This document shows, in pieces, positions 10,915 through 59,255 of a stretch of DNA of 64,000 bases; within the stretch, counting starts at the first letter, position 1; each line of letters begins with the position of its first letter. The DNA lies in contig NZ_AP023275.1 of NCBI RefSeq assembly GCF_013426735.1, positions 62,001 to 126,000 on the forward strand, read 5' to 3'. The stretch comes from Agrobacterium vitis (lineage in GTDB: Bacteria; Pseudomonadota; Alphaproteobacteria; Rhizobiales; Rhizobiaceae). A program made the translations under genes and the position numbers. The notes below the pieces were generated by a model, which did no database searches, was not told the origin of the DNA, and saw only the letters and a program-made list of their open reading frames with translations.

Positions 10915-10942
10915 CGGCGTCTCACGGTTGATTTGCAATGCA

Positions 10943-10968
10943 AATGTTGTCCGTGCGGCGTTTGTTCC
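10943..10968 (-). promoter_or_regulatory. Candidate EcfG-type promoter of ligD
   Basis: On the minus strand, GGAAC (10968-10964), 17 bases, then CATT (10946-10943) matches EcfG promoters except for one base of the -10 element. It ends about 28 bases before the proposed ATG at 10914, which supports that start. Confidence 0.5.
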
Positions 10969-35288: not shown

Positions 35289-35681
35289 GTTCGACGATTG
35301 CTGGCCGTGGTTGCGCAAAACCTCTCGGACCAACTCAGCGGAGATGGGCTTCGCAATAAAGCTGGCGTTGCTTGGCAGGTCATTTGGCCCCGGACGCGCC
35401 GCTGCCGAGGCGACGACAACCTGAATATGCGGCCACCGCTCTCCAACCATGCGGGCAAGCTCGAAGCCGTTGAGTTGTCCGGGCATCTGGACGTCGGTAA
35501 ACAGAAGCTGGAGGCTCGGATGGCTTTTGAGGAACGCAAAGGCCTCGTCAGCGGTGGATGCTTCGATCACCGCGTATCTTTCGTCGCTGATCATGTCGGA
35601 CGTATCCATCAGGATGAGCGGTTCGTCATCGACGACGAGGGCGATGGGCTGACGTAAGTTCGCAAATTCGGCATTTTCCAT
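35283..35681 (-). CDS. Single-domain response regulator
   Basis: 132 residues: a complete receiver domain with acidic pair Asp18-Asp19 in VVDDEPLIL, phosphorylation site Asp63 in FTDVQMPG, and Lys in FIAKPIS. No output domain. The start MENAEFANLRQPIALVV lies 11 bases from the end of IS6 copy C, so its native promoter and perhaps an upstream kinase gene have been cut off. Such regulators in rhizobia often pair with HWE or PAS kinases. Confidence 0.85.
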   Translation of the reverse strand: MENAEFANLRQPIALVVDDEPLILMDTSDMISDERYAVIEASTADEAFAFLKSHPSLQLLFTDVQMPGQLNGFELARMVGERWPHIQVVVASAAARPGPNDLPSNASFIAKPISAELVREVLRNHGQQSSNS

Positions 35682-41612: not shown

Positions 41613-42061
41613 CGACGTGCTGTTGCAAAGCCGCCGCGATGCCAAGGCGGCAAAGCGTTTGATGCGAAAGCTTCTGAAAGGGCAATGCCGTGCGCCGCGT
41701 GTGATAATCACCGACAAGCTTCGATCCTACGGTGCGGCGAAGCGTGATATCATGCCCGGTATCGAACATCGCTCGCACAAGGGCCTGAACAATCGGGCCG
41801 AGAATTCTCATCAGCCTGTCCGACGGCGTGAAAGGATTATGAAGCGCTTCAAGTCAGCGAGGCACCTTCAACGGTTCGTTTCCATCCACGATCCGATTGC
41901 CAACCTCTTTCACGTTCCCCGCCACGACATTCCATCCACCCATCATCGCGAATTGCGAGAAACAGCCATGCAAACATGGTACCAAATCGCTGGCATTCAA
42001 GCCGCCTAAACCAGAACCTCAACCCCAAATCATGACTGCGAAGCGCTAAGTTTACATTGCC
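41613..42061 (+). mobile_element. IS6 type 2, copy D, second part
   Basis: It encodes the C-terminal 134 residues of the type 2 transposase (from DVLLQSRRDAKAAKRL to TWYQIAGIQAA) and ends with the terminal repeat at 42061. Together with 38434-38810, and counting the shared octamer once, it makes a complete 818-bp element. Confidence 0.9.
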
Positions 42062-42102
42062 GATAACGCCTCAATAGAGATCTGACCCCGACAACGCGAG
42101 TT

Positions 42103-43623
42103 TTACCTTGCGGTCTCTAGTGGCATTCGGAAGATAAAGCAGGTCGATGTGTCGTCGGATGTCGCACTGACGGTTCCACCGTGAGCTTTTGCGATTTCAC
42201 TTGCGATATAGAGTCCGAGCCCAAGACCCTGCTTGCTCGCGTTTCCTTCACCTCGAGAGAAAGGCTGAAACAAGCGCTTCATGGTGGCCTCTGAAATCTT
42301 CGTGCCACCATTGCTAATCGCAAGCTGAAACAGGTTACCCTCTACTTTTGCAGAAAGCGTTATAGGCCTGTCGCTCGCGCCATGCGTTATCGCGTTCCCG
42401 AGGAGATTGGAAACCAATTGCTCCAGCCGGGCGTGATCCACATCGACAGGCCGATGCACATCAAAGTCGGTTTCGATGATACGCTCGGGATGCGCGACCA
42501 GAATTTCGTTGATGATCCTTGCGAGAAGCGATTCGATAGGCGCTGCCTTCGTTATATTAAGGGAGATACCGTCTCCGAGACGGCCGCGGGCGAGGTCCAG
42601 TAGATCGTCTATCAGGCTGCTCATACGCTGTACGCTTTCGCCCATAAGGCGCAAGATCCGTATCGTACGCTGATCGGTCACGTCTTTCGAAATCACTCGC
42701 AAACCAGCGGACATTGACGCGAGGGGATTGCGCAAGTCGTGGCCGAGCACAGCAATGAACTGTTCTCGTTCGTGGGCAATGCCGGCCAGTTCCTCGTTAG
42801 CCTCCTGCAATCTTTCTCGGATCTGTCTGGCCTCCGTCACGTCAAAAATGACCCCGACATAGCGATGCCCTCCGGAATCAACATCATCGACGTATTCGCC
42901 ACGACGCGTCAGCCACCGTTCTTGGTCGTTATCCGCCCGTCTTATGCGGAATTCGATGCTGCTGACGTCCTGGTGTTCATCGGGAAAGCTAAGGTCGATT
43001 ACCTTTCTATCGTCTGGATAGATGAGCTCGTTCAAGGTGGCGACCGCGATTACCCGAGCGGGATGAAGGCCGAACAGACGGCAGAACTGTTCCGAAACAG
43101 TGATCGTCGCCCACCCCACTCTGTGTTCGAACGTACCAATGCCCCCCGCCGACTGAGCAACACGAAGCTCTTCGGTGATCCGCTTTTGCTCCGTAATGTC
43201 GACCATATTACCGACGAACATGGTCGGCTCGTCGTCCTGATCGAATATCGCGCGGCCTCTGGCGTGCACCCACCGATACCCGCCATCGTCTTTCAACAGC
43301 CTGTAGTCTTTGGAAAAGAGTTCCGAGCCGGCCATGATCCCTGCGACAGCGAGCTTCACCCGCTTGAGGTCATCGGGATGGATCGAGTTGAAGAAACAGT
43401 TTGTAGAGGCGCCGTCCGCAAGGGCAGCCGGATCCTGCCGTGTGATTGCCGCAAACCGGGCATCGGCCACAAGCCTGTCGCGTCGAATATCCCATTCCCA
43501 GGTACATGACGCTCCCGCGACATCGAGCGCGAGCTCAAGTTGCCCACGTGCCACTGTAATATCAGGACTCGCACGCTCAAGCTCGGATTTCGCGCTATTG
43601 TCAGGGCTGTTGATGATCGTCAC
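42103..43623 (-). CDS. PAS-PAS sensor histidine kinase, last gene of the chemosensory operon
   Basis: 506 residues, no membrane segment. Two PAS domains are at about 25-150 and 155-275 (WEWDIRRDRLVADARFAAIT, GTFEHRVGWATITVSEQFCR, each followed by a PAC-like segment). A coiled linker leads to the HisKA domain with the phospho-accepting His in VLGHDLRNPLAS. The HATPase has SNLLGNAITHG, and GLGLGLYIASEIAKAHGG as G box. It starts 12 bases after cheC. A kinase inside a che operon recalls the CheS3 kinase of the Rhodospirillum centenum Che3 pathway, so it may phosphorylate or compete for the operon's CheY. Confidence 0.88.
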   Translation of the reverse strand: MTIINSPDNSAKSELERASPDITVARGQLELALDVAGASCTWEWDIRRDRLVADARFAAITRQDPAALADGASTNCFFNSIHPDDLKRVKLAVAGIMAGSELFSKDYRLLKDDGGYRWVHARGRAIFDQDDEPTMFVGNMVDITEQKRITEELRVAQSAGGIGTFEHRVGWATITVSEQFCRLFGLHPARVIAVATLNELIYPDDRKVIDLSFPDEHQDVSSIEFRIRRADNDQERWLTRRGEYVDDVDSGGHRYVGVIFDVTEARQIRERLQEANEELAGIAHEREQFIAVLGHDLRNPLASMSAGLRVISKDVTDQRTIRILRLMGESVQRMSSLIDDLLDLARGRLGDGISLNITKAAPIESLLARIINEILVAHPERIIETDFDVHRPVDVDHARLEQLVSNLLGNAITHGASDRPITLSAKVEGNLFQLAISNGGTKISEATMKRLFQPFSRGEGNASKQGLGLGLYIASEIAKAHGGTVSATSDDTSTCFIFRMPLETAR

Positions 43624-43635
43624 GCGTTTGCCCGT

Positions 43636-44265
43636 TTATGCAATCACCCGGTCGATGAAATCGGCGATAAGTCTTTTCAGTTTCTCCAGAGAGGGCAGGT
43701 CCATCAGCATGGCGATGTACCCGCGTACCTTTCGATCCTGGACGGAAAAGTTAATGTAGAGGAACAATACGAAGCTTTGGTCACTGGTGTTGTCGAAAAC
43801 GTCGAACAAAGCGGCGCTGTTACCGCGGCGAACACTGGGAAGCGACATTTTCAGCGTGTGCTGCAACATATTCGCCATCGAGCCGAGACAGCCGTTCAAG
43901 ATAACGTTCCCGGTTTCGGCGAGAGCTTCATCCTCAATTTCAGCGACGCCCGCGTCGTCCATGTCCTCGCCAATGATGGCACGGACGAGCGACAGGCCAT
44001 TGCTTTCAGGAAAAATGAGAAGCGCGCGCCCTGAAAAAGGGCCCTCGAACTGCTGTTGCACGGCGATGAGATCTTCGTTCTCTCGCTGACCAATCAAGGC
44101 AGCCGCAGACTTTCGTGTAACGACCTCGACAGAGGGGACAGACAGGATGACTTGCCTGTTGACCATCTTTCGCAAACTCGCCGCGGCACGGCTGACGCCG
44201 ATATTGACGAGTTCTGTCAGGGCATCGCGTTCGAGATCGTCCAGCGCTAACGAACCACTGCTCAT
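43636..44265 (-). CDS. cheC: CheC-family CheY-P phosphatase
   Basis: 209 residues. Two phosphatase motifs with the Glu and Asn pair are visible: DALTELVNIGVSRAAASLRK near residue 15-35, and ALAETGNVILNGCLGSMANM near 115-135. This two-site arrangement is that of CheC rather than CheX or CheZ. It overlaps cheY by the ATGA arrangement, supporting a direct role in dephosphorylating that CheY. CheC is much more typical of Firmicutes and archaea than of alphaproteobacteria. Confidence 0.82.
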   Translation of the reverse strand: MSSGSLALDDLERDALTELVNIGVSRAAASLRKMVNRQVILSVPSVEVVTRKSAAALIGQRENEDLIAVQQQFEGPFSGRALLIFPESNGLSLVRAIIGEDMDDAGVAEIEDEALAETGNVILNGCLGSMANMLQHTLKMSLPSVRRGNSAALFDVFDNTSDQSFVLFLYINFSVQDRKVRGYIAMLMDLPSLEKLKRLIADFIDRVIA

Positions 44266-44645
44266 ATGGCGGCTTTCCTCAGGCGAAGTGCTGCGCCGGA
44301 GATGAAGCCGCTCAAAGCTTCTTCCGTGACAGGCTTGGCCACGAAGGTCGCGTTCAGCGCGCGGACTCCTGCAATGATTTCATCCTGAACATTGGCGGTA
44401 ACGACGGCGATCGGCATGTTGGGATGTAAACCGCGTAGTTCTCTAGCGAGTTCAAGCCCATCCTTATCAGGCATGTTGAAGTCCAGAACGGCCACGTCAA
44501 TCCTCTGGGAGTTAACGACAGCCAAAGCATCGGCGGCGCTTCCTGCCTCAATGCGCGTCCAATCGGGCTGTAATGCCGCGATCGCCTTACCGGCTACGAT
44601 CCTGGCTAATTTGCTGTCGTCAACCATAAGGACTATGACCGTCAT
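44262..44645 (-). CDS. cheY: CheY-like single-domain response regulator
   Basis: 127 residues with acidic pair Asp9-Asp10 (MVDDSKLAR), phosphorylation site Asp55 (VLDFNMPDKDG), Thr83 (VVTANVQ) and Lys104 (FVAKPVT). No output domain. It lies between the STAS gene (89 bases) and cheC (overlap). It is the likely phosphate acceptor from CheA in this cluster, with unknown output target. Confidence 0.88.
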   Translation of the reverse strand: MTVIVLMVDDSKLARIVAGKAIAALQPDWTRIEAGSAADALAVVNSQRIDVAVLDFNMPDKDGLELARELRGLHPNMPIAVVTANVQDEIIAGVRALNATFVAKPVTEEALSGFISGAALRLRKAAI

Positions 44646-44734
44646 CTAAAACTCCACCAAAGGGCTGCGATCCACTTGGACGCCAACATAAACCTCTCTT
44701 TTAAAGGGCCTATGGGAACTCCGCAAGTTTGCCA

Positions 44735-44995
44735 CTAGGTTTTTGACGCGTCCATGAGCGAAGTTTTTACTACGTGAACCAACAGGTCCGCCGTAGTAGA
44801 CCCTTGAGGGGTGCCATTGAGTTGTGGGCCGTATACTAGTAATGCTTGCCATAGAGCCGTGTGAATTTCCGTTGCTGCCGCCACATCGACGGCAAGGTCG
44901 CGGTGATTTTCCAGATAGCTGACGAGCGTCTCCGCTTCTTCGATACCACATTTTCCAGAGAGGACGATGGTACCATTGCCAAGGTCCACTGTCAT
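44735..44995 (-). CDS. STAS-domain protein
   Basis: 86 residues starting MTVDLGNGTIVLSGKCGIEE. The pattern of a short STAS (MlaB-like) domain is visible: GTIVLSGKCGIEEAETLVSY, then LAVDVAAATEIHTALWQALL, with Thr or His near the usual Ser/Thr phosphorylation position. STAS proteins act as scaffolds or anti-anti-sigma-like partners. The start overlaps the cheA stop (ATGA), so it is translated with CheA. STAS genes next to cheA occur in some non-flagellar chemosensory clusters. Confidence 0.75.
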   Translation of the reverse strand: MTVDLGNGTIVLSGKCGIEEAETLVSYLENHRDLAVDVAAATEIHTALWQALLVYGPQLNGTPQGSTTADLLVHVVKTSLMDASKT

Positions 44996-46953
44996 GACAC
45001 CAACTCCTCTATATTCACGACCAGCAGGACCTTTCCATCCCCCAGCAGAGTCGTTCCTGCAATTCCAGGTAGGCCCTCCAGCAAGCCCCCCAGCGGCCGG
45101 GTCAGGGTCTCGGCGCGCTCGGCAATCTCATCGACGGCGACCCCGATCTCGTCTTCCCCAGCCTGCACGATCAGCACCTTGAGATCGCTGGAATGCGCGC
45201 TCGGCGATTGCACCTGCAGGAGTTCGCCGAGATGCAGCAAAGGGATCGTTCTGTTGCGCAGCACGAAGGCCTTGCCCGCCCGCAGGGACTGGATCGCGCT
45301 CATCGGCAGCTTGTGTGTCTCGATGACATCCGAAATGGGGATGCCATACCGCTCATCGCCGACCTGAACGACCATCAACTGCGTCATCGAAAAGCTGATC
45401 GGCAGCCTCAGGACGAAGGATGTGCCGGTTCCGACCGTGCTTTGCAGCTCGAGCGTCCCGCCAAGCCTTTTGACGGAACTCTGAACAGCGTCGAGGCCAA
45501 CCCCGCGGCCGGACAGGTCGGAGACCGAGGATGCGGTGGAAAAGCCGGGCGCGAAGACAAATTGCAGAACGTCCCGGTCGGAGAGAGCTGACGCCTGGCC
45601 TTCCGATATTAGACCGCGATCCATCGCTGTCGCCCGGATGCGTTGCGGATCTATGCCGCGGCCATCATCGACCACTTCGATCTCGATCTGGTCGCCACGC
45701 TGCCGGGCGCGCAACAGGAGACGACCTCGAGCGGTCTTGGACTGCTGCTGCCGGTCGGCTTCCGGCTCGATGCCATGGCCGAGACCGTTTCGTATGAGAT
45801 GCAGTAGGGGTTCGAACAGGTTCTCGACGATTTCCCGGTCGGCTTCGACGGCCTCACCCTCGATGATCAGGTCGAGCGCCTTGCCGAGCCTTGCCGATGT
45901 CTCGCGCACCAGCCGCGGAAAACGGCGGAACGTGTGTTCAAGCGGGATCATGCGCGCCTGAGTGACGGCGCTATAGAGCGAGGCGACGAGACGCTCGATT
46001 TCATGATGGTTGGCGAGGATCCGTCTCGCGAGCTGGCCATTGCCGTGGCTGCGCGCTTCATCCGCCAGCGGCACGAGGCCGTTCTTGGCGGCGATCAGCT
46101 CGCCGGCGATTTCGACGAGTTTGTCGATACGCGCGGAATCGACCCGTATAGTTGTCGACTGACGATCCGTAGGGCGGTTTGCCGATACCTCCAGCTGGGC
46201 GGTTTCCCGTTCCTCGGATGCTCCGGGCAAGGCGAAAAGCTTGACCTGATCGGGGATCAGCCGGAACACGCCTTCCGCCTCCGCTATCGAACCGCCCGAA
46301 ACGGCTTCGATCAGCAGATTGCAACGGAACGGATCGTAATCCTGCGGCGCCGGCCGGGGTTCCTTGAGCGAAAGAGCCAGATGCCTGAGGTCAGAAAGCC
46401 GCGATATCGTTGCCAGCGGATCGTCGCCATTGAAGAAACATTCGGGATGCGGCTCGTAACGGATGGCAATCAAGGTTCCTGCCGCATCCGTCGTGGGAAC
46501 CTTGTGATGCAGAGACAACGCCCAGTCCGGAACTGCCGTGGGTGCAAGGGCAGTCTCCCCGGCGTCGCGCTCGGTCATTTCGCCGCTCACCAGCCTCACC
46601 AGCCTCGGCGCCTGCTTCTCCTGCGCTTCGGAAAGACGCCCCGTCTCGGAGATGCCTTCTATGCTGTTGTCAACCCATTCGATCACCGCGAGAAGCGGAT
46701 CGATGAGCGTCGCGTCCACGACGATCTTGCCGGCGCGTGCTTGCGACAGAAGATCTTCCGCCTGGTGCAATATTCCGAGCATTGGACCGAAGTCGAAAAG
46801 GCCGACCGAGCCCTTCAGCGTGTGGATCGCCCGGAAGGCGCTTTCCAGGCTTTCCCGTTGGCGCGGATTGGCCTCCAGCGACAGCAGGTCTTCCGAGGCC
46901 TGCTGGACCAGTTCGCGCGCCTCGATGGCGAATTGGGCGATCAATTCAACCAT
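44992..46953 (-). CDS. cheA: Chemotaxis histidine kinase CheA
   Basis: 653 residues. P1 (HPt) has the phosphorylated His44 in AIHTLKGSVGLFDF. A regulatory P2-like region lies at about 150-255 (IRYEPHPECFFNGDDPLATI). P3 is the dimerisation helices at about 275-335. P4 has the N box HLIRNGLGHGIEPEA, G1 VVDDGRGIDP and G2 GRGVGLDAVQSSVKRLGG. P5 (CheW-like) is at the end with LMVVQVGDERYGIPISDVIE. The N box has Gly where most CheA proteins have Asp before His (NGLGHG instead of N-VDHG); the catalytic Asn is present. It follows cheR with no gap. Confidence 0.93.
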   Translation of the reverse strand: MVELIAQFAIEARELVQQASEDLLSLEANPRQRESLESAFRAIHTLKGSVGLFDFGPMLGILHQAEDLLSQARAGKIVVDATLIDPLLAVIEWVDNSIEGISETGRLSEAQEKQAPRLVRLVSGEMTERDAGETALAPTAVPDWALSLHHKVPTTDAAGTLIAIRYEPHPECFFNGDDPLATISRLSDLRHLALSLKEPRPAPQDYDPFRCNLLIEAVSGGSIAEAEGVFRLIPDQVKLFALPGASEERETAQLEVSANRPTDRQSTTIRVDSARIDKLVEIAGELIAAKNGLVPLADEARSHGNGQLARRILANHHEIERLVASLYSAVTQARMIPLEHTFRRFPRLVRETSARLGKALDLIIEGEAVEADREIVENLFEPLLHLIRNGLGHGIEPEADRQQQSKTARGRLLLRARQRGDQIEIEVVDDGRGIDPQRIRATAMDRGLISEGQASALSDRDVLQFVFAPGFSTASSVSDLSGRGVGLDAVQSSVKRLGGTLELQSTVGTGTSFVLRLPISFSMTQLMVVQVGDERYGIPISDVIETHKLPMSAIQSLRAGKAFVLRNRTIPLLHLGELLQVQSPSAHSSDLKVLIVQAGEDEIGVAVDEIAERAETLTRPLGGLLEGLPGIAGTTLLGDGKVLLVVNIEELVS

Positions 46954-47820
46954 TCATTTGTCTCCCGCCTCTCGGTAGACGATGGCGTCGGGAAAGCGGA
47001 CCGGCTCGAAAGTCTCCGAAATGCGTGACATGGATTCCGTATGGCCGAGGCAGATATAGCCGCCGGGATAAAGCAGTTCATGAATATTGCGGGCGGCGAT
47101 TTCGCGGGCCGCCTCGTCGAAATAGATCAGCAGGTTGCGGCAGAATATCACATCGAAACGCCCGAGTGACGCAAGGCTTGGCCGATCGACGATGTTGCCC
47201 TTAGCAAAGGTGACGGATTCCCGCAGATCGCCGATCAGCCGACGTTGCTGATCCTTTTCCGGTTCGAAATACCGGTCAAGGATATCTTTCGGGATTTTCG
47301 AAAGCGACCGCTGCCCGTAATGGCCGTCCACCGCCTGCCGCAGGATGGCGGTATCGATATCCGAGCCGGTAATCTCGATATTATAGGCATCCACCAGCGG
47401 CCAGTTTTCGAGCAGCCAGATGGCGATAGAATAGGGCTCCTCGCCGCTCGAACAGGGCATGGACCAGATACGGATACGATCGCCCGGACCTTTTGCTTTG
47501 ATCACATCGGGCAGGATGGAATTGCTGAGGCAGGCGAGCTGGTGCTGCTCGCGATAGAAATAGGTCTCGTTGACGGTGAAGCTGTTGATCAGCAACTCGG
47601 TCTCGCGCAGGTCACCGCGCAGGATAGAAATGTAGTTTTTGGCCGATTGGGCCTTGCGCTGGCTGATCAGGTCGGTGACGCGACGCTCGATATAATAACG
47701 CTTGGTCTCGCCGAACACCATGCCGCTGCGCTGGTAGATGATCGCGCAGATTTCCTCGAGATCGGCGCCCGAAAGCGGGTCCGCACCAAAATTTCCCGAA
47801 TTGGCCGGAGGGATCACCAT
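46954..47820 (-). CDS. cheR: Chemotaxis methyltransferase CheR
   Basis: 288 residues starting MVIPPANSGNFGADPLSGAD. The N-terminal helical domain is followed by the SAM-binding domain with TVNETYFYREQHQL, IRIWSMPCSSGEEPYSIAIW, ITGSDIDTAIL and FDVIFCRNLLIYFDE. It methylates receptor glutamates. ATG overlaps the cheB stop (TGATG). A longer frame upstream to 47916 lies inside cheB and is rejected. Confidence 0.93.
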   Translation of the reverse strand: MVIPPANSGNFGADPLSGADLEEICAIIYQRSGMVFGETKRYYIERRVTDLISQRKAQSAKNYISILRGDLRETELLINSFTVNETYFYREQHQLACLSNSILPDVIKAKGPGDRIRIWSMPCSSGEEPYSIAIWLLENWPLVDAYNIEITGSDIDTAILRQAVDGHYGQRSLSKIPKDILDRYFEPEKDQQRRLIGDLRESVTFAKGNIVDRPSLASLGRFDVIFCRNLLIYFDEAAREIAARNIHELLYPGGYICLGHTESMSRISETFEPVRFPDAIVYREAGDK

Positions 47821-48905
47821 CAGCAGACCCGATCCAGCAATGAAGCCCCGATGTCTTCGACGCGTCTGATCTCGCTCGCGCCATTGAGGCGTACCAGCTC
47901 TCCCGGCATGCCCCAAACGACGGCCGTCTCTTCGGATTCGGCGATCGTGTAACCGCCGGCGGCCTGCAACTCGGCCATGGCGGCGGCGCCATCATTCCCC
48001 ATGCCGGTCATCAGGATGCCGACGAGATCGGTTGCCGGCACATGTTTCATCGCCGAGCGCACCATCCGGTCGACGCTCGGATGCCACCGATAGGCCTGAG
48101 CGCTCGGAGCGGCCATCGCCACCAGCGATCCGGCGCGCGCGGAGATGACGATATCCGCATCCCCCTTGGCGATATAGATGTTGCCCGGCTCCAGTTTGGT
48201 CTGCTGGCTGACCTCGCTGACGGTCAAAGCGCAGAGCTTGTCCAGCCGCCGGGCCAGAGGTCCGGTAAACGAGGCCGGCATGTGCTGCGCCACGACCACC
48301 GGCCAGCCAAAGTTCGCGGGCAGATGGGCGAGCACCGCGTCGAGCGCCGGCGGCCCGCCGGTCGATGTGCCGATCAGCACGAGACCGGTTCGACTTGAAT
48401 CCCGGACCGGTCGTTGGGGGGCGGCCCCGCGACCGCGAGACGGGATTATGGTTTGCGATGGAACGACCTGCGTCAGCCGGACGCGCTCGGCGAGCCGCCG
48501 GCTGCGACGGATCCGCACTGTCGCTGCCATCCGCACCTTTTCGACAAGACGTGGGGTCAGTTCATTGATCGAAAGTGAAATCGCGCCGCCAGGCTTGGCG
48601 ATGAAATCGACCGCGCCGATCTCCAGCGCAGTCAACGTCTCCTCCGCGCCCTCCTCCGTTAGTGACGACACCATCACCACTGGGCACGGATGTTCGAGCA
48701 TGATGCGATCGAGACAGGCGAGCCCATCCATCAAAGGCATGTGGATATCGAGGGTCACCACATGGGGCTGGAAGCTCGAAACAGCCTTCAGAGCCTCGAC
48801 ACCGTCGCGGGCGAATTCGATCTCGAAATCCCCTTCCGCGCTGAAAATCTGGCCCAGAACCTTCCGCATCAACGCAGAATCCTCAACGATGAGAAGACGG
48901 ATCAC
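47820..48905 (-). CDS. cheB: Chemotaxis methylesterase CheB
   Basis: 361 residues. Receiver domain with Asp53 in VTLDIHMPLMDG and Lys104 in FIAKPGG, linker, then the esterase with Ser181 (GTSTGGPPALD), His208 (VAQHMPASFT) and Asp305 (TGMGNDGAAAM). It removes methyl groups or deamidates receptor glutamines. The start overlaps the end of the CheW gene by ATGA. Confidence 0.94.
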   Translation of the reverse strand: MIRLLIVEDSALMRKVLGQIFSAEGDFEIEFARDGVEALKAVSSFQPHVVTLDIHMPLMDGLACLDRIMLEHPCPVVMVSSLTEEGAEETLTALEIGAVDFIAKPGGAISLSINELTPRLVEKVRMAATVRIRRSRRLAERVRLTQVVPSQTIIPSRGRGAAPQRPVRDSSRTGLVLIGTSTGGPPALDAVLAHLPANFGWPVVVAQHMPASFTGPLARRLDKLCALTVSEVSQQTKLEPGNIYIAKGDADIVISARAGSLVAMAAPSAQAYRWHPSVDRMVRSAMKHVPATDLVGILMTGMGNDGAAAMAELQAAGGYTIAESEETAVVWGMPGELVRLNGASEIRRVEDIGASLLDRVC

Positions 48906-50323
48906 GGAACAGCCACCGCCGGCTTGTCTTCGGTGATCGCCGCCACGATATCCCGCTCCGCCCGGCTCAGAAGCTCCTTTGGATCGACGAGCAGGATCAT
49001 CCGGCCGTCGGATTCGATATGGGCGATGCGATCGAAGACCTCCGTCCGGTCGGAAGAAAACTCGGGTGCGGCCGACAATGCGGCCGAGGAAACAGCCTTC
49101 ACTTCCGATACGCCATCCACCACAAAACCGGCCTGCAACGTGCCGAGCGTCACGATGATGGCGCGCGCCTTGTCCATCTGCGCCAAAGCCAACGTGTCGA
49201 AACGGGTGCGCTGGTCGATCAGCGGGATCGCCTTGCCGCGCAGGTTGATGACGCCCATCACGAAGGCTGGCGCGCGGGGCATGCGGGTGACTTCGCTTGG
49301 AACCCGCACGACTTCGTCGACCGAACCGATGGGCAGACCGTAATTCTCGTCGCCGAGCTGGAAAATCAGGAACTGTTCGACCGTCTCTTGCCTCTCACGT
49401 GTCGTTCCCATCGGTTTGGCTCCTGTATTCTGGCCGATCGCCTGGGTGACGGCGTGGTGACCAAACAGTTTTTGCGGCGACAGGATGGAAATCAGCAGTC
49501 CGCCATCGGCAATCCGGCCGATCGCCTCGATGTGCGCATCGCCGCGCCCGCGCTGCAGAACGGCTGGGACCGTACCGATGGCATCCTCGGGCAGCCGGCG
49601 GATCACATCCATGCCATCAACGACCAGACCCACCAGATCACCCTCGTGCTCGACGACGATGATCCGGGAGCCCTCGACCGCCGAATGCACGCCTTCGAGG
49701 CCGAGAAGCGATGCCAGCGACACCAAGGGCAGAACACTGTCGCGCATCGGAATGAGACCGACCACCGCCGACGCCGCATTCGGAATGACCGCGATATCGC
49801 CGGTCAACATCGCGACTTCGCGGATATCGTCGAGCGGCAGGCCATAGAGCTGCCCGGCGACGCGAAACGACAGCAAGGCGATGAGCTGAGCGCTCGCCTC
49901 CACCTCTTTACCACGGTCGCCATGGGCGGTCCGTTCAGACGGCGAGCGCCTCGTCACCTTGAACGCGGCATCCAGCAGGCCATTCAGATCCTGAAGCGGT
50001 GCGGCCGTCGCATCCGCCGAAAGTCGCAGCACGTCATCGACGAGAAGGCCGACGGCGCCACCGTGATCGTAAACGATGATCTTGCCATCCGGGCGCGCAT
50101 TGTGGCTGCCGTTCAGGACCTTGCCCATTGACAGGACCGGGACCGGCTTACCGCGGAGATTGGCGATGCCGGCCAGCGCCTCGGGCCCATGCGGAACTCG
50201 GGTGATATACGGCACCCTCATGACCTCGATCACAAGGCCCGCTTCGATCTCGTGGCTCTGCTCTCCGACCCGGAATACCAGCCGCCGCCGATCGACATCC
50301 GCCGGGGAGGGTAACACTGCCAT
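48902..50323 (-). CDS. cheW: Triple CheW-domain adaptor protein
   Basis: 473 residues made of three CheW domains in tandem. Domain 1, about 12-130, has LVFRVGEQSHEIEAGLVIEV and GIANLRGKPVPVLSM. Domain 2, about 145-295, has LLSFRVAGQLYGLPLDDIRE and GLIPMRDSVLPLVSL. Domain 3, about 315-460, has FLIFQLGDENYGLPIGSVDE and GVINLRGKAIPLIDQ. CheW normally has one domain of about 150 residues coupling receptors to CheA. The triple form could bridge several receptors or kinases. It lies 4 bases after the receptor gene. Confidence 0.88.
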   Translation of the reverse strand: MAVLPSPADVDRRRLVFRVGEQSHEIEAGLVIEVMRVPYITRVPHGPEALAGIANLRGKPVPVLSMGKVLNGSHNARPDGKIIVYDHGGAVGLLVDDVLRLSADATAAPLQDLNGLLDAAFKVTRRSPSERTAHGDRGKEVEASAQLIALLSFRVAGQLYGLPLDDIREVAMLTGDIAVIPNAASAVVGLIPMRDSVLPLVSLASLLGLEGVHSAVEGSRIIVVEHEGDLVGLVVDGMDVIRRLPEDAIGTVPAVLQRGRGDAHIEAIGRIADGGLLISILSPQKLFGHHAVTQAIGQNTGAKPMGTTRERQETVEQFLIFQLGDENYGLPIGSVDEVVRVPSEVTRMPRAPAFVMGVINLRGKAIPLIDQRTRFDTLALAQMDKARAIIVTLGTLQAGFVVDGVSEVKAVSSAALSAAPEFSSDRTEVFDRIAHIESDGRMILLVDPKELLSRAERDIVAAITEDKPAVAVP

Positions 50324-50327
50324 GGCT

Positions 50328-52259
50328 TCAGTTTCCGGACATCTGGAGTTCGTCGGCCAGCGATGCGATTTCCTCGACCGCCGCCGCTAGGTCCTCCGCC
50401 CCGCGGGACTGCTGCCTTGCCGCGGTCGCCGCCTGCTCGGAGGCGGCACTCGCCTCCTGCGCCACAGAGGCAATCTGCTGCGTTCCGGCCTGAACCTGCT
50501 TGGCGGCGACGAGGATCGCCTGCGTCGCATTGAGGATCGATGCGTTGCCGCGCACCATCAGGTCCACATCGGCTTCCGCCGCGATCAGCCGATCGACGAT
50601 CTGCTTGTTCTTCGCGATCTCGGCCTCGGAGGCCACGACGATCATTTCCAGTTCCCACTGCACGGCGGCGATCTGCACTTGGATCTGCCGCACGATGTCC
50701 TTGACGCCATCGATATTCTCGGCGGCATCCTGGGCGAGTTTGCGGATATCGGTCGAAACGATCGCAAAACCACGGCCCGCCTCGCCGGCCCTTGCCGCTT
50801 CCACCGAACCGCTGACCGCGAGCATGCTGGTCTGCACCGCGACGAGCACGATCCGGTCCACCGTGCGCTCGATCTGAAAACCGATCTCGCCGAGCGAATT
50901 CAGATCCGTCAAAGCGTTCCGCGTTTCGCCGAGAGCATCGGAAACACCCGCCGCGATCGCATCCAGGCCGGCCTTGTTTCTGCCGAGGAACGTCTTGATC
51001 TCCTCGGCGCGCTGGCTTGCCTGCTCGGCACTCTCCTGCGTCTGGGAAGCGCTCTTTTCGATCTGAGGCATGGCCGCATTGGCCTGCTGCGTGGCAGCTG
51101 CCTGCGCTTCCGCCCCGCGGCTGATCTGCTCGATCGCAATGAGAATTTCACCAGCCGCACCGGAAAGCTCCTGAACGGTGGCGGACAGCTCTTCTGCTGC
51201 AGAACTCAGCTCTTCCGTCCGCGAGGCCCGGCCGCTTTCGTTCATCAGCTCATCGGCAAGTGTGGCCAGAGATTGCGCCGTCTGCTGGCTTTCCTCTAAC
51301 GCCGCGCTCTGTTGCTGGACCGCGCGTTGCGCCTCGGTCGCAGCCGCGGATTGCTCTTCGGCCGCTGCCGCAACAGCTTCGGCACCCTTCTGGGCCTCGC
51401 GCGTTGCGACTTCCGCTTCGACCGCAGCGATCAGGATCACCTGGCTGTTCTGCGACAGGGCGGTGAGGCCCGAGCGGATGGCATGTAGTTCCTCGGACAC
51501 CGTCCGACCCGAAGCCGTCTGCTCCTGCGCCTTGGCGGCAGCGGACCGGATGCGATCGGCAATCCGGCGAACGCCATCGACGACCGTCTCGGCATGCTGG
51601 CTGACATCGCGGGAGCTTCGCTCGGCAATTTCCGCCAGCGACCGGACCTCGTCGGCGACGACCGCAAATCCACGGCCTTCGTCACCGGCCCGCGCCGCCT
51701 CGATCGCCGCATTGAGCGCGAGCAGATTGGTGCGGTCCGAAATATCGGCAACCGCGACGGTCGTAGCGCCGATGCTTTCCGCCTGGGATTGCAGCCTGTC
51801 GATGACGGCAACGGAAGCGATCTGGCGTGAAGCATTCGCATCGATTGCGGAGATCGACGTATCGATCTGCGCAGCGGATTCGAAGACAGAGGTCTGAAGT
51901 TCCTCGGTGCGCCTGCGCGCGGCTTCCGCTTCCGTCCTAGCCTCGGAGAACCGCGCCGAAAGGTGGGTGGTGGCGGACAAAGACTCATGCGCCGCTCCTG
52001 CTGCTTCTTCGGCCCCGCTGGCGATCTGCTCAAGCGCCCGGCGCAACTCTTCTGCGGCTGCCGCGGCTTCCGACACGCCCGTCGCAAGTTGTTCCGTCGC
52101 AGCCCCGATTCGCTCGGCCGCCTGCTGTTGCCGCACGCGCGAACGATCCTGCGATCGTCGGCTGACGGATCTTGTGTTTGGCTCCGCCACAGCTCCCGTC
52201 TGGCCGGCCTTCGGAGGATTTGTCTTTGCGCCTAACTGAGAGGTTTTCACCAGTGCCAT
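50328..52259 (-). CDS. Soluble methyl-accepting chemotaxis protein with two signalling tips
   Basis: 643 residues from ATG at 52259 ([20 protein letters not shown]); a GTG at 52370 would add 37 residues. No membrane segment and no recognisable sensor domain. The protein is almost entirely coiled coil. Two segments resemble the CheA/CheW-binding hairpin tip: residues 171-210 ([20 protein letters not shown]) and 464-510 ([20 protein letters not shown]). Each is followed by GRGFA and a conserved helix. A normal receptor has one tip. Ala/Gln/Glu-rich segments around 60-95, 290-330 and 600-630 may be methylation helices. It heads the operon. Confidence 0.85.
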
Positions 52260-52610
52260 GCGTTTCCAATCTCGTGAACTTATGAGCTGAGCCTGCAACG
52301 CAAGGAATTGCCCTTGATCATACAGTCTATGGCGCAAACGACGGCATAACGCAAACCTTTCGTCATGCACAGGATATCCGAGATCGCCAACGATTATAGG
52401 AACGGGACGAGAACGACGCCAGGTGGCATTTAGAGCGCCGCGCCGCGGAGACGATCTATGCTATGCCGTCCAATAATCCTTGGGGATCGTCTAAAATGGA
52501 CCCGTTGTCCGATGTCATCTCGTTCATGGAACTGAAAAGCTGTCACGTGGGCGTTCACGGCGGACGACTGGTCGGTCCGTTTCGATCCACATGATGGCAT
52601 TAAATGCTAC
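52260..52610. other. Upstream region of the chemosensory operon
   Basis: About 350 bases between the operon's first ATG and the broken DoxX gene. The sequence presumably holds the operon promoter, but no EcfG-type or clear sigma-70 motif could be placed with confidence. Confidence 0.4.
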
Positions 52611-52960
52611 GCCGTGAAACCGCCGACCCAGACAACTGCTCCGGCGACGAAGACCAAAATTGCATTGAGCCAAAGCACTCTCGTTTCCCCGCGAGAAAGA
52701 TGCAAGGCCACACCCGACAATTGCAAGAGTACCATGCCTGCCGCGGCGAGAGTCGTAAGCCATGGCATATACGTAATGCTGCCGGGAAATGATGCCGATG
52801 GCGCTCAACCCCTCCATGATTCCGAGGAAGGTGATAAGCGAGGGTGGAACATCGACGGTCCAGTGCCAGCCCATGGCGGCAAGGGCCTCTGGTGTCCGGC
52901 TCAGCTTGAGGAAGCCGGCGTATGCAAAAAACTGGGCAAGAATTGTTCGCCTCGTCCATA
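52611..52960 (-). pseudogene. DoxX-family membrane protein, frameshifted
   Basis: Two frames join to a small four-helix membrane protein: RRTILAQFFAYAGFLKLSRT, then MGWHWTVDVPPSLITFLGIM and EGLSAIGII, then after a shift near 52790 FPGSITYMPWLTTLAAAGMV and LWLNAILVFVAGAVVWVGGF. The order and lengths fit DoxX-like proteins (about 115 residues). No start codon remains in the first frame. Confidence 0.65.
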
Positions 52961-54232: not shown

Positions 54233-54297
54233 CAATCAAACTCCCGCTGTTACAACAGAAGCAAAATAAAATGATGCCTACTTTAGTTCAACGTTAC
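53138..54297 (-). mobile_element. IS630-family element, intact
   Basis: The element lies between two TA dinucleotides (53136-53137 and 54298-54299), the target of this family. It carries one full transposase gene. The second copy at 2104 matches its left 540 bp. Removing the element and one TA restores the last codons of the cysteine-rich protein gene at 54726. Confidence 0.88.
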
Positions 54298-54726
54298 TAG
54301 CGTTTCCTGGCAGGTCAGAGAGAATTTCTGCCTGGAGTTCCTCAAGCAGCCTTTGATGGTCAGGGGATTCAACCCGTTGCAAACCTGCTTCATTTCTACC
54401 TGGCACATATGGGCGGTGACCCAAAACGCCTGGCATGTTGGCGACAGGCTTGCTTTGTTCTCTTCAACGCATGTTGAGATGGCATCAGGGGTAAGCCGCC
54501 ATGGCCTGAGGCACTTCGATCGGATCTCAGCGCCGCATTGTTCCTTCACAGCGGGAGACAGGGGAGCTGCCAAGATAGTTTGGGATGCCCCGGTCAGGCC
54601 GAGGATTACCGATATCGACTGAAGCAAACGCTTGCCCAGGACCAGGGTGCTCGAAAGGCGCTCTATGCCAAACACGCTTTGAGCTGGCCTAGACATTTCC
54701 TTTTGGAAGGCGGTCTGTTCGGTCAT
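54283..54726 (-). CDS. Cysteine-rich secreted protein, last residues changed by IS630
   Basis: 147 residues starting MTEQTAFQKEMSRPAQSVFG behind a good GGAGG. A hydrophobic signal segment near residues 30-50 (VILGLTGASQTILAAP) is followed by cysteine-rich repeats (CGAEIRSKCLRPWRLTPDAI, CVEENKASLSPTC, CQVEMKQVC, CLRNSRQKFSLTC). These resemble the cysteine-rich repeat found in Golgi-glycoprotein-like bacterial proteins. The IS630 insertion replaces the native end (DVQ, stop) by VTLN. The change is small, so the protein may still work. Confidence 0.65.
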   Translation of the reverse strand: MTEQTAFQKEMSRPAQSVFGIERLSSTLVLGKRLLQSISVILGLTGASQTILAAPLSPAVKEQCGAEIRSKCLRPWRLTPDAISTCVEENKASLSPTCQAFWVTAHMCQVEMKQVCNGLNPLTIKGCLRNSRQKFSLTCQETLVTLN

Positions 54727-54855
54727 GACCCGAACCTCCAGAAATGCATGCGGCGCAATGTAGCTCGAATAGCATCCAGGTTCGGCAATACGGTAAAGGA
54801 TGGAACCAGCATTACAATCACAGTCGATGCTACAGTTTGAATGATCTTCATCCAA

Positions 54856-55159
54856 AAGATCTTGTCTTCGTAGGGAGACATATGCTTGTTCCTTTTCTTC
54901 AAGAAGGTCCTCTTCTGTCAGCGACAGTGATCTCCGAGAATTGCATGGGCATTACATAGAAACAGCTTGATCTGGTTTTTCGCAGCCGATGGTGCGGCGG
55001 TCCAGAAGATACATTTCGAAGTGGGAGGCGATGAGCGGAGCAAGGCTGGAGGTCTGGGCTCTCGCTCCGCTCACCCGAGCCGGCGGGGATGCCGGTCTGC
55101 TCCTGCTAAGCAGTCATCCGGCCAGCAGGAGGTTTGGACGATGCTGCGTCTTCTGATGA
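54856..55159. other. No recognisable gene
   Basis: Spacer between the cysteine-rich gene and the DUF3313 gene. Short frames exist but lack ribosome binding sites and family features. Confidence 0.4.
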
Positions 55160-56062
55160 TCAATGTGCTGGCAATGTCTTCGGCTTCTTGTCGGTCCATT
55201 GTGGCGGAAGGCCATAATTTCCGGCGACCTTGCCAACAATGCCTGGTGCTCGCCCGAACGAGTCGCATGCTGCATATTTCGGTTTGCCGCCGAGCCAGGA
55301 CTGGACCCGGTTTCTGGAAGGGATGGAGATGTCCAACATCTTCGGTTCCTTGCCCGTTATCAACGTCCGGGAAAAGTCACTGGCAAATTTGGTTGCAAGG
55401 CCATAGGCATCGCCGACCTCCGAGTAGCGCGGCTTGTCCTGAATGAAGTTGGCTCCACGGCTCCACATCATGGCCGCACGTTGAACATTGGAACTATCGG
55501 TTGCCTCAGCTTCGACCGCAAGACCGCCAAGGCCGATGGGTATGCGTGGAATGCCGACAAGAGGGATGTCGCTTGGGATCATGAAACCACCGCCAACGCT
55601 TGCAACAGTCGCCGCAGCCGCAACACCTTTGTTGGTCGGCACAATATCGGTAACGACAGAACGGATTGTCAGGTCCGCTCGTTGGCCGGCCGGCACAATT
55701 TCATATTTGTCGCTCAATGCGACGCAAAGGGCGCGGTCCAGCGCATTGGATACTAGGGCACGGTCGGTCTCCAACTTGATACGAGATGCAGCATTGAAGG
55801 AGAAGCTGGTTGGAATGATCCGAACCGTCTTTATCTGGGCCAATTGTTTGCCATCGACGTAAAGCCGTCGTTTCTTGCCAAAGTTGCCCTTGGGAGGGCT
55901 CAGATTGCTGTAGGAGGTCAGCGTTCCACTTTCCGTCAGTGGCACGGATGTACAGCCGGCCACTGCAACTGTCATGATCAATATCGGAAGAGAGAAAAGC
56001 AAACGTCGTGGGGGGTCGCCGAAAAAACGACTGAAAAGCTGATTATAGATTTGCACGTGCAC
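55160..56062 (-). CDS. DUF3313-family lipoprotein
   Basis: 300 residues. A hydrophobic segment at about 20-36 ends in a lipobox (VAVAGC, Cys37), so the protein is probably a lipoprotein. The mature part has YVDGKQLAQIKTVRIIPTSF, ALCVALSDKYEIVPAGQRAD and LTIRSVVTDIVP, typical of DUF3313. The function is unknown. A motif identical in 15 of 16 bases to the operator of the adjacent two-component/RND region lies 43 bases upstream, suggesting shared control. Confidence 0.8.
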   Translation of the reverse strand: MHVQIYNQLFSRFFGDPPRRLLFSLPILIMTVAVAGCTSVPLTESGTLTSYSNLSPPKGNFGKKRRLYVDGKQLAQIKTVRIIPTSFSFNAASRIKLETDRALVSNALDRALCVALSDKYEIVPAGQRADLTIRSVVTDIVPTNKGVAAAATVASVGGGFMIPSDIPLVGIPRIPIGLGGLAVEAEATDSSNVQRAAMMWSRGANFIQDKPRYSEVGDAYGLATKFASDFSRTLITGKEPKMLDISIPSRNRVQSWLGGKPKYAACDSFGRAPGIVGKVAGNYGLPPQWTDKKPKTLPAH

Positions 56063-56104
56063 CGGCCTCCAACATTGATGTTGGAGTGACAGTCGGAGCT
56101 GAGG

Positions 56105-56141
56105 ATTGCGGCAGCATTACAAGATGCAATGAGGCTGCAAT
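56105..56141 (-). promoter_or_regulatory. Motif shared with the RND/two-component operator
   Basis: ATTGCGGCAGCATTAC at 56105-56120 differs by one base from the left arm of the palindrome at 58266. A second, weaker half-site in inverted orientation is at 56126-56141. It sits just upstream of the DUF3313 gene. Confidence 0.6.
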
Positions 56142-56214
56142 TCTCTAAGCGTTGGGGAGATAATATCGAAGAGAGCGTGGTGGGAGCGGTGAGCCGACAA
56201 GAAACAAGCCCATA

Positions 56215-57555
56215 TCATAGGCTGACTGTAACTCTTGTGCCGCCTGAATGACTCTGGATGCTAACTTGTCCACCGTGATTGTTGACGATCTGCTTCACTA
56301 GGCTTAGACCAAGCCCGGCGCCTTGGCTTCTCGGGGTGACGCGGTAGAATGGTTGGAATACCAGTTCCTGATGTTCGACTGGTATGCCAGGTCCCTCATC
56401 GCTGACGGCGATCTCACCGCTCGCGGAGACCGAGATTTCGATCGTTCCTCTTCCATCGCAATGGTCAATCGCATTGCGAACCAAGTTGCCGATCGCCCTG
56501 GTCAACGCAATGCTGTTGCCCCTGCGGGGGAGAGCTTCAACCTCGCTTTGAAATGAAATTTCATAGCCCGCTGCGATGGCGATCGGCGCAAAGTCAGCCA
56601 CAACCGCACGGGCGATCGTGACGAGATCGACCTGTTCATCAAGATCTACCGCTTGATCGTTGCGTTCGAAGTCAAGCAATTGTTCGGCTGTGTCGGCCAA
56701 GCGCGCCACATCTAGCAACATGCGTGTGCGCTCCGGACCATCTGACATGCCGTCGATGCGCGTTTGCATAATGGCGATCGGTGTTCTGAGCTCATGAGCC
56801 GCGTCGATCAAGAACCGTTGACGCTTTTTGAATTCGGTCTCAAGCCTCTCGAGGGCTCCGTTGAAGGCGACGACGAGCGGAGCGACTTCACCCGGTATGC
56901 CCTCGACAGGAAGGCGGCTGCCCTGGCGATGGGGGTCAATTTGCGCTGCCCTCTCGGCGACATCTTTGATCCTTGCAAGCCCACTTCCCACGATATAGGG
57001 GACAGCAATAAATATGGCGGGCAATGCCATCGCAAGCAGCGATACATAAATCGGATAGGCTTGCCCGAGCACCGCAAGCACCGGCGAGCCTTTGCCGGCT
57101 ATGCCTCCAAATAATACGCGCACTTCACCCAGCAGCGTCGCAACATCATCGATCGATGCGATTTCATCTATTCCGTCTGCCTCGCGGATATCCGCGGAAT
57201 CGAACAGGTAGGTTAAAGGAACGATCGCAGCATATGCCGACGGAATAGCGCCCCGAGAGACGAAAGTACCATCGGCAGTGGCCGCTACAAACCACAGATG
57301 GCTGTTCTCCTCCATCAGCGCCCGCATTAAGAGGGTGTCTTCGAGTTCAAGCTGGCCGCCGCCATTTCGCCTGATCGATTCCGCAACCGCGTTCTTAACC
57401 TCGCTCTCCATCGCTATGTTGGGCGACATCACCATCGTGCCGTATACCGACAGCCCTACGATCACACCGCCGATTACGACGCTGATCACCAGGCTGAGTT
57501 GCCAGCTTAGGCGCCACCAAAGCGATGGGTTTGTGGACCGGTATGCACCCATCAT
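56215..57555 (-). CDS. QseC-like sensor histidine kinase
   Basis: 446 residues with two membrane segments (about 14-36 and 160-185) enclosing a periplasmic sensor of about 120 residues. HAMP follows, then HisKA with the His in FLIDAAHELRTPIAIMQTRI, and HATPase with NLVRNAIDHCDG, DEGPGIPVEHQ and GAGLGLSLVKQIVNNHGG. Its start overlaps the stop of the response regulator gene. The pair probably senses an envelope signal and controls the divergent RND operon. Confidence 0.9.
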   Translation of the reverse strand: MMGAYRSTNPSLWWRLSWQLSLVISVVIGGVIVGLSVYGTMVMSPNIAMESEVKNAVAESIRRNGGGQLELEDTLLMRALMEENSHLWFVAATADGTFVSRGAIPSAYAAIVPLTYLFDSADIREADGIDEIASIDDVATLLGEVRVLFGGIAGKGSPVLAVLGQAYPIYVSLLAMALPAIFIAVPYIVGSGLARIKDVAERAAQIDPHRQGSRLPVEGIPGEVAPLVVAFNGALERLETEFKKRQRFLIDAAHELRTPIAIMQTRIDGMSDGPERTRMLLDVARLADTAEQLLDFERNDQAVDLDEQVDLVTIARAVVADFAPIAIAAGYEISFQSEVEALPRRGNSIALTRAIGNLVRNAIDHCDGRGTIEISVSASGEIAVSDEGPGIPVEHQELVFQPFYRVTPRSQGAGLGLSLVKQIVNNHGGQVSIQSHSGGTRVTVSL

Positions 57556-58223
57556 TCTTCCTTCAGGAGGTAGCCGACACCGCGGATGTTATGGATTGTG
57601 GTGCCCGCGTCGGCATCCGATAATCGCTTGCGCAACCTCGAAATGTGCGCATCCAAAGCGTTTGATTGTATCTCTTCTTCGTAGTTATAAACCGCCTGTT
57701 CGAGCGTGGAACGAAGAACGGTTTTGCCCTTGCGTTTTGCAAGCGCCTGGAGAACCAAAAGCTCCCGGCGCGGGATCTCGAGCGTATCGGTTCCGATTTT
57801 GACGGTAAGGTTCAACGGGTCGATCGACAATCGCCCAACCCTGATATCTTGATCGATCACGCCAGAGGGACGTCGCAGGAGGGCTCGAACCCGTGCCATC
57901 AACTCCTCGACCAGAAATGGCTTTCCCAGATAATCGTCCGCACCGAAATCGAGGCCCGCCACCCGTTCCATCGGCTCGTTTCGGGCGGTAAGTACAATGA
58001 TTGGCGTATCATTGCCTGCACGCCTTAATATCGGGATGAATGTCAGTCCCTCTCCGTCCGGCAAACGCCGATCCAGAAGGATGGCGTCGTAGTCATTTTG
58101 CAGAACGAGCTCATGGGCATCGGCGAGGTACATCGTGTGATCGGTAACGATCCCGTGCTTTGACAGCGCAGCCGATAGCGCTGTCGCCAGTTCCCTTTCA
58201 TCCTCGATCAACAGAAGTCTCAT
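57552..58223 (-). CDS. OmpR/QseB-family response regulator
   Basis: 223 residues. Receiver with Asp51 (ILLDRRLPDGEGL) and Lys101 (YLGKPFLVEEL), then an OmpR-type winged helix (LEIPRRELLVLQALAKRKGK, ALDAHISRLRKRL, IRGVGYLL). It is first of the regulator-kinase pair with a 4-base overlap. The palindrome at 58266 lies 43 bases upstream. Confidence 0.92.
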   Translation of the reverse strand: MRLLLIEDERELATALSAALSKHGIVTDHTMYLADAHELVLQNDYDAILLDRRLPDGEGLTFIPILRRAGNDTPIIVLTARNEPMERVAGLDFGADDYLGKPFLVEELMARVRALLRRPSGVIDQDIRVGRLSIDPLNLTVKIGTDTLEIPRRELLVLQALAKRKGKTVLRSTLEQAVYNYEEEIQSNALDAHISRLRKRLSDADAGTTIHNIRGVGYLLKEE

Positions 58224-58265
58224 CGTAGCCCCGCATCCTCGCCTGGCAGCAGTGTCGCCAAGAAC

Positions 58266-58315
58266 ATTGCAGCAGCATTACGAGGATAAAAAGATGGGGG
58301 TAATGCTGCTGCAAT
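58266..58315. promoter_or_regulatory. Long palindrome between the regulator and RND operons
   Basis: Arms 58266-58281 (ATTGCAGCAGCATTAC) and 58300-58315 are perfect reverse complements around 18 bases. It is centrally placed between divergent genes and is the likely binding site of the response regulator, controlling both directions. A near copy lies at 56105. Confidence 0.75.
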
Positions 58316-58395
58316 TGTCGAACCTCATCGTCCACCTACAGACGCGGCACCAGACGGCTTGATGTGCGGTGCTCTATCACAACGAGGTCGACCTG

Positions 58396-59251
58396 ATGGC
58401 ATCCAAATGGAATAGAATACTCACGGTAACCGCGGCACTTCTTGGCGGCGTCTATTGTTCCGTCGCTTTGATCGGCCCTGCACTGGGAACGAGCGTTGTG
58501 AACGAACGGCTGCAGGAGGTGGTGGTAACCGCGCATGTCCGTGGCGCGACATTACCGTTTGAACTGTCTCCAATGGAAGTCGCTACAATTCAGCCGGCCG
58601 TGCTCGTTGAGCGGCTCAGGGTAACGGGCGAACTTCGACCCTCACGTCTCGTAGAACTGCGCCCCGTTAGCGGCGGCAGGATTACGCATTCAAACATTCG
58701 GGAAGGACAGGCCGTAAAGGCCGGTGACGACTTGATCGGGTTTGAATCGAATGACCTTCAGGCCGGTCTGAAACAAAAAGAGGCGGACCACGAAGGCGCA
58801 ATGGCCGAAAGGGTGCTTGCAATGCAGTCGCTCAACCGGATTGAGCAACTTGCGAGCAAAAGTGTCGCAAGTCAGGACCAACTCGACAAAGCACGCAGCG
58901 AGGTTGCGGCAAGAAAAGCCCGGATGGATAGCCTTGCCGCCCACGTCGAAATAGCGCGAACAGCGTTGCCACTTCAAGGGAGGCATGTTTGTCCACGGCT
59001 CAATCCTGGTCCGGCAGACCGAAGACGCAATTGCCATTCCTGTGGCCTCAATTCGGGGAGACGATAAAGACGCTCACGTTCTCAAACTCGTGGACGGCAT
59101 TCTCATCCGCCAGCCGGTGAGCATCATCTCAAGGTGGGATGATAACCAGATGGCCGAGGTCTCTGGTCTTGCGCCCGGCGTCATGATCGTAAGGGCGCCA
59201 CTTGCCGAGCTGCAGCCGGGCCTTGTCGTCACAGTCGCGAAGATGGGATAA
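58396..59251 (+). pseudogene. RND periplasmic adaptor (membrane fusion protein) with internal deletion
   Basis: The N-terminal part starts MASKWNRILTVTAALLGGVY (membrane anchor), then a lipoyl-like half (PVSGGRITHSNIREGQAVKA) and the hairpin (QSLNRIEQLASKSVASQDQL). Near 58970 it jumps, in a different frame, to FKGGMFVHGSILVRQTEDAI and the C-terminal membrane-proximal domain ending 59251. About 75-85 residues of the lipoyl second half and beta-barrel are missing. The pump downstream is intact, so it may use another adaptor. Confidence 0.75.
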
Positions 59252-59255
59252 GTTC

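Follow-up and report, generated by a model that had tools for sequence, protein, structure and literature searches.

The 64,000-nucleotide stretch of Agrobacterium vitis DNA analysed here (contig NZ_AP023275.1, positions 62,001 to 126,000; hereafter the window) carries an operon of nine chemosensory genes, which raises the question of what class of system they encode and whether it steers flagella or controls something else. The genes are intact, with all frames open, and occupy positions 42103-52259 of the minus strand in the order receptor, triple CheW, CheB, CheR, CheA, STAS, CheY, CheC and PAS kinase. We consider it likely that they form a complete, plasmid-borne system of the F9 class, belonging to a nine-gene alphaproteobacterial subtype, whose output is not the momentary steering of a motor.

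Composition and class of the operon

A preliminary description of the operon, made from the sequence alone, had given overlaps of 1-4 bases or gaps of 0-12 bases between the genes, except for 89 bases before cheY. This spacing holds on re-examination, and the catalytic residues named for CheA (H44), CheB (S181, H208 and D305) and CheY (D55) were all found. The receptor is indeed predicted to be soluble, as hydropathy indicated a membrane segment in none of the nine proteins. Pfam matches were obtained for eight of them, the exception being the STAS-fold protein of 86 amino acids:

50328-52259, minus strand: double-signalling-domain (DosM-like) receptor, 643 amino acids; PF00015 in two stretches, tips near residues 178 and 478; neither sensor domain nor membrane segment
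48902-50323, minus strand: triple CheW (CheW3), 473 amino acids; PF01584 in three stretches
47820-48905, minus strand: CheB methylesterase with receiver domain, 361 amino acids; PF01339 and PF00072
46954-47820, minus strand: CheR methyltransferase, 288 amino acids; PF01739 and PF03705
44992-46953, minus strand: CheA kinase, 653 amino acids; PF01627, PF02895, PF02518 and PF01584; in the F9 clade of the tree
44735-44995, minus strand: STAS-fold protein, 86 amino acids, identified by model and structural matches; 4-base overlap of its start with the cheA stop; conserved in 26 relatives
44262-44645, minus strand: CheY-like single receiver, 127 amino acids; PF00072
43636-44265, minus strand: CheC/CheX-family phosphatase, 209 amino acids; two motif copies
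42103-43623, minus strand: soluble PAS-PAS histidine kinase, 506 amino acids; PF08447 twice, PF00512 and PF02518; short non-hybrid form by comparison of kinase forms

The CheC/CheX protein matches PF13690 and PF04509 above the cut-off and contains two copies of ExxN...P, which we take to be the catalytic motif of this phosphatase family. The predicted model of the STAS protein has the STAS fold and aligns best with RsbV and SpoIIAA-type antagonists; the protein can be aligned with 26 homologues, and H45 and T46 are invariant across the 27 sequences.

The preliminary description overlooked the key feature, the tandem signalling domains of the receptor, which has neither sensor nor membrane segment and stands beside a triple CheW. 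According to PMC9321776 neither of the two architectures occurs outside the F9 class, and PMC7534058 likewise names DosM and CheW3 as its hallmarks (here and below, statements taken from cited papers are limited to the parts of them that were available). The window receptor has two tandem MCPsignal stretches, two tips and no other Pfam match, and the CheW protein has three CheW stretches within its 473 amino acids. A CheA phylogeny, proposed in the preliminary description, was computed as a quick tree of 74 proteins, in which 44, the window CheA included, form one clade (SH-aLRT 100). This clade consists of all 43 rows labelled as nine-gene or other DosM/CheW3 clusters and one row labelled "other" (L132, from genome G321), and the 30 rows outside it include the two other CheAs of the host and that of E. 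coli. Among its members is locus L044 of Azospirillum sp. B510, which we infer to be the one F9 system that MiST 3.0 assigns to this strain (PMC6943060). Vibrio sp. THAF191d (L043) was considered as an F9 reference and set aside, because its CheW-like genes are separate and its CheA lies outside the clade, near E. coli CheA. The operon does not have the features of the ACF class, to which R. centenum Che3 belongs: its CheA and PAS kinase are without receiver domains and its CheW is a single triple protein. The earlier impression that it is unlike known che operons is therefore not supported, since it fits the published F9 definition and other Alphaproteobacteria have plasmids with annotated clusters related to it. 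Full F9 clusters are reported from 64 of 2781 species, with a sporadic distribution and many transfers (PMC9321776).

The geometry of the receptor is strikingly constant. A separation of exactly 300 residues between its tips was measured in 99 of the 104 homologues with two readable tips (120 examined), and the same spacing occurs in 28 of the 31 receptors with readable tips from 42 loci tried, including those of Azospirillum, Rhodocyclus, Methylosinus and Sphaerotilus. Such constancy fits a rod of fixed length between two layers. Comparison of the homologues showed tip 1 to be near-canonical and tip 2 to deviate consistently, and this dissimilarity suggests that the two layers would not be equivalent. 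Only the all-helical content of the predicted receptor model was used, because it shows helix breaks near tip 1 and near residue 340 and none at tip 2.

Distribution, flagellar genes and output

The window CheA, used as a query, matched 30 loci in genome contigs, 26 of which contain these nine genes in identical order, the remaining four being arranged differently. The nine-gene order, a search for which had been suggested, also recurs on plasmids of Novosphingobium resinovorum and Sphingobium yanoikuyae and in genomes G871, G1139 and G639. A survey with CheC, which is blind to F9 systems without CheC, gave matches in 7 of 394 genomes of the host's family, 6 of 397 of its order and 14 of 385 of its class (the host being counted each time). 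The 15 genomes whose best CheC match was at least 52% identical were taken as F9 carriers (G000, G075, G157, G175, G178, G321, G385, G824, G871, G984, G1101, G1139, G407, G639 and G741). Ten genomes with a best match of only 30-41% identity were excluded; nine of these have rod genes, and the tenth, G731, in which all three flagellar markers are absent, was rejected as a carrier for want of a CheA. Searches of an open-licence library showed no account of the nine-gene operon in rhizobia, and some of the loci may be listed in the supplementary tables of PMC9321776.

The flagellar markers FliM, FliG_C and rod genes are all absent from four of the 15 carriers (G824, G871, G1139 and G639). FliM (PF02154) is a poor marker in the family, having no match in the host, G175 and G178, where FliG_C and rod genes are present; the latter two were therefore relied on. 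In G871, G1139 and G639 the only CheA is that of the operon, whereas G824 has two CheAs and a variant operon. No chemoreceptor besides that of the operon was detected in G639, and G871 and G1139 have one further chemoreceptor each, with a membrane segment and a different tip sequence. The assemblies of G871 (20 contigs), G1139 (10) and G824 (1) are good, and that of G639 may be contaminated, since it consists of 400 contigs and its operon lies on one of 18 kb. If the assemblies can be trusted, flagellar steering by the operon is impossible in the carriers without markers, and as its relatives occur in such genomes a role other than setting the direction of swimming is probable. Where the operon is the sole chemosensory system and flagellar genes are undetectable, any phenotype would be non-flagellar. 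The preliminary view of a self-contained operon, probably not for steering, is thus borne out by the recurrence of the gene order and by these carriers.

What the operon controls in the host is a separate matter. In MiST 3.0 the F9 system of Azospirillum sp. B510 is linked with Che2 of A. brasilense and with a flagella-biosynthesis cascade of R. centenum (PMC6943060), and R. centenum che2 mutants are described as hyperflagellated or aflagellate and still chemotactic (PMC2890560). Che2 of R. centenum, the nearest studied relative, thus controls flagella biosynthesis and not taxis. By analogy, our best guess is that the host operon sets flagellar number or which surface structures are made, and given the carriers without markers its output would not be limited to flagella. 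The non-flagellar output first proposed is therefore supported as a non-steering role, but as flagellar genes are present in the host the term claims too much there. In the type F9 system of V. cholerae, deletion of cheA is reported to give no phenotype under standard conditions (PMC7534058). A paper on Bradyrhizobium CheA3 (PMC13390405), in the part available, appears to concern a different CheA3 and was not used.

Some features of the related clusters may be recorded here. L135 and L136, from two genomes of genus g458, are nine-gene operons whose CheAs lie far apart in the tree, one adjoining Bosea, which suggests that they may have been acquired separately. A second CheC homologue follows the first by about 3 kb in G639 and G407 (L137:11615-15096 and L139:11014-14730). 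In the F9 clusters of Methylosinus and Methylobacterium the gene after STAS belongs to the ParA family (L046:12962-13813 and L177:12882-13643), and its product might position cytoplasmic arrays. In clusters of other gene order a HEAT-repeat gene stands between cheB and cheR, where the nine-gene subtype has none:

L044:8059-8724, HEAT-repeat gene
L046:8139-8771, HEAT-repeat gene
L174:7115-7732, HEAT-repeat gene
L177:8207-8743, HEAT-repeat gene
L178:8039-8665, HEAT-repeat gene

Kinase forms, partner regulators and plasmid setting

The terminal PAS kinase occurs in two forms with different catalytic cores, an observation that is new here. Of 32 nine-gene loci, counting the window, 27 have as their last gene a hybrid PAS kinase with a receiver domain and five (the window, L009, L010, L012 and L022) a short kinase whose core is unlike that of the hybrid, while a PAS part is recognisable in all 32. 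The short kinase occupies only two places in the CheA tree, L022 standing apart from the other four, so that the core must have been exchanged, or recombined, at least once more. The two forms amount to a natural experiment on the contribution of the accessory kinase.

Clustering of the open reading frames that flank 31 nine-gene loci gave response regulators in 19 loci, with the next cluster in seven and the others in at most five, and no anti-sigma gene was among these recurrent neighbours. In 15 of the 27 hybrid loci (17 if the larger frames with a receiver stretch in L137 and L179, dropped from the count, are included) the receptor is preceded by a co-directional regulator of type A, which none of the five short loci has there. 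The association of kinase form with type A regulator (0 of 5 against 15 of 19 loci; Fisher p 0.003) is not independent evidence, because the short kinase occupies so few places in the tree. L012 and L022 have, instead of type A, a type B regulator in opposite orientation, divergent from the receptor in L012. Upstream co-directional regulators that are not of type A occur in L029, L030 and L136, and also in L018; those of L018 and L031 score about equally for the two types. The window holds a homologue of the regulator that stands beside the short kinase in two relatives, also a new observation; it lies 6.4 kb beyond the kinase, adjoining an IS6-type element, and is probably the displaced partner of the window's short kinase:

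35283-35681, minus strand: single-domain response regulator of type B, proposed as the partner, now displaced, of the short kinase; 79% identical over 129 amino acids to the L012 regulator; PF00072
35693-36464, minus strand: IS6-type element adjoining the type B regulator
41613-42062, plus strand: piece of an IS6-type element, directly adjoining the operon block at its kinase end; 99.3% identical to an IS6 stretch of pAvCG78b; DDE_Tnp_IS240

A RepB gene is present on the contig. The block 42062-52786 shares 98% identity with Agrobacterium vitis plasmid pAvCG78b. On that plasmid the operon is flanked by IS6 transposase genes, one at 0.6 kb past the receptor gene and one at 3 kb past the kinase, with GGDEF/EAL gene pieces in between on the kinase side; the sequence flanking its receptor side is found in the window 10 kb further on, at 62728. 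CG5 (L010) has the same block and also matches 54297-57139. The gene pieces are four short annotated coding sequences (PAS, GGDEF, EAL and EAL; L047:16080-17777) that adjoin the kinase end and look like parts of one cyclic di-GMP gene. GGDEF- or EAL-like frames also lie downstream in L009, L010, L016 and L032. Elsewhere the window encodes a PAS-PAS-MCP receptor without a second signalling domain (16528-18312), whose tip is like those of the host's other receptors and unlike that of the operon's. Further cargo includes a LigD-type DNA ligase (8233-10995), an alpha-amylase family protein (12478-14139), a DUF892 protein (32037-32534) and a two-component pair near an AcrB-type efflux gene (56215-62381).

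Alternatives, mechanism and comparison with known systems

Several points weigh against an F9 system that does not steer. FliG_C and rod genes are present in 11 of the 15 carriers, the host included, and 97% of F9 species are given as flagellated (PMC9321776), so that a motor role is possible in flagellated carriers. The operon's CheY, which keeps its phosphorylation site, might bind the flagellar switch and feed a signal from inside the cell, for instance its redox or energy state, into the normal chemotaxis of the host. We regard this as unlikely, because the full nine-gene order occurs in carriers without a flagellar marker, the V. cholerae deletion gave no phenotype and R. centenum che2 mutants remain chemotactic. 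The preliminary description had held that a CheA inside a flagellar class would tell against its proposal; this is half the case, since F9 is numbered among the flagellar classes yet described as an unlikely primary navigator (PMC9321776). As to class and mechanism, ten rows of the CheA tree are of unusual composition, the F9 CheA of V. cholerae is not represented in it, and L141 was labelled F9-like although its contig stops before receptor and CheW. The regulator-kinase link comes from few cases, array clusters were not observed for A. brasilense Che2 in the available part of one study, and an array in the nine-gene subtype is a prediction by analogy.

Two other explanations concern the STAS protein and the mobility of the block. 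If the STAS protein were itself the output and bound an anti-sigma factor, the array would control a stress regulon. The likeness of its predicted model to RsbV and SpoIIAA would accord with this, as would the invariant H45 and T46, presumably at about the position of the antagonists' phosphorylated serine. Such a partner switch nevertheless seems improbable: the recurrent neighbours in the survey of 31 loci include no anti-sigma gene, the STAS gene overlaps cheA, and CheS of S. meliloti, also STAS-only, is reported to bind CheA (PMC12654446). It is very improbable that the operon is a passenger moved by IS6-type elements and devoid of present function in the host. Such elements do occur close to both ends on pAvCG78b and, in the window, next to the kinase end, and the distribution is sporadic (7 of the 394 sampled genomes of the family), but the nine frames are open, the catalytic residues are kept, and distant relatives preserve the gene order, the tips and the CheC motifs.

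For the non-steering F9 system preferred here, a mechanism may be proposed. The V. cholerae F9 array is described as purely cytoplasmic, with two baseplates and DosM between them (PMC7534058). By analogy, receptor rods with a tip at each end would form, together with CheW3 and CheA, a two-layered cytoplasmic array. Judging from family functions and the residues and motifs kept, CheA would phosphorylate CheY and CheB, CheR and CheB would set the gain of the array, and CheC would dephosphorylate CheY. The STAS protein, whose gene overlaps cheA, may modulate CheA as a counterpart of CheS. The PAS kinase could be a soluble sensor in a parallel arm with its own regulator, in the window probably that at 35283-35681, and the output would be a change of cell state or of surface structures, for example the number of flagella. 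A bolder and quite tentative idea, which may well not hold, is that the operon is a mobile general-purpose signalling cassette: a sensor-less internal array, needing neither flagella nor other receptors, would take its signal from the PAS kinase of the same operon, and the catalytic core of this kinase would be swapped together with its partner regulator to rewire the output.

Close counterparts are found on plasmids. That of Rhizobium sp. L51/94 has the same nine genes in the same order with a short kinase like the window's, whereas those of Novosphingobium resinovorum and Sphingobium yanoikuyae, equally organised, have the hybrid kinase. The plasmid cluster of A. brasilense Sp7, presumably Che2, comprises receptor, CheW, CheB, CheR, CheA and CheC, with its CheA in the same clade, and differs in its HEAT-repeat gene, extra regulator and gene order. 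R. centenum Che2, linked to F9 by MiST 3.0, shares the tripartite CheW, but its CheA has a receiver domain (PMC2890560), which the window CheA lacks. Like the window, R. centenum Che3 (ACF class, cyst formation) has a second, PAS-containing kinase, CheS3, beside CheA (PMC2890560); unlike the window, its CheA3 and CheS3 both have receiver domains and its CheW is encoded by two separate genes. Cluster I of V. cholerae (DosM, CheW3 and CheA), the type case of F9, has the sensor-less double-signalling-domain receptor, the triple CheW and the cytoplasmic proteins found in the window, to which, compared by class description rather than gene by gene, the window adds STAS, CheC/CheX and PAS kinase in a fixed order.

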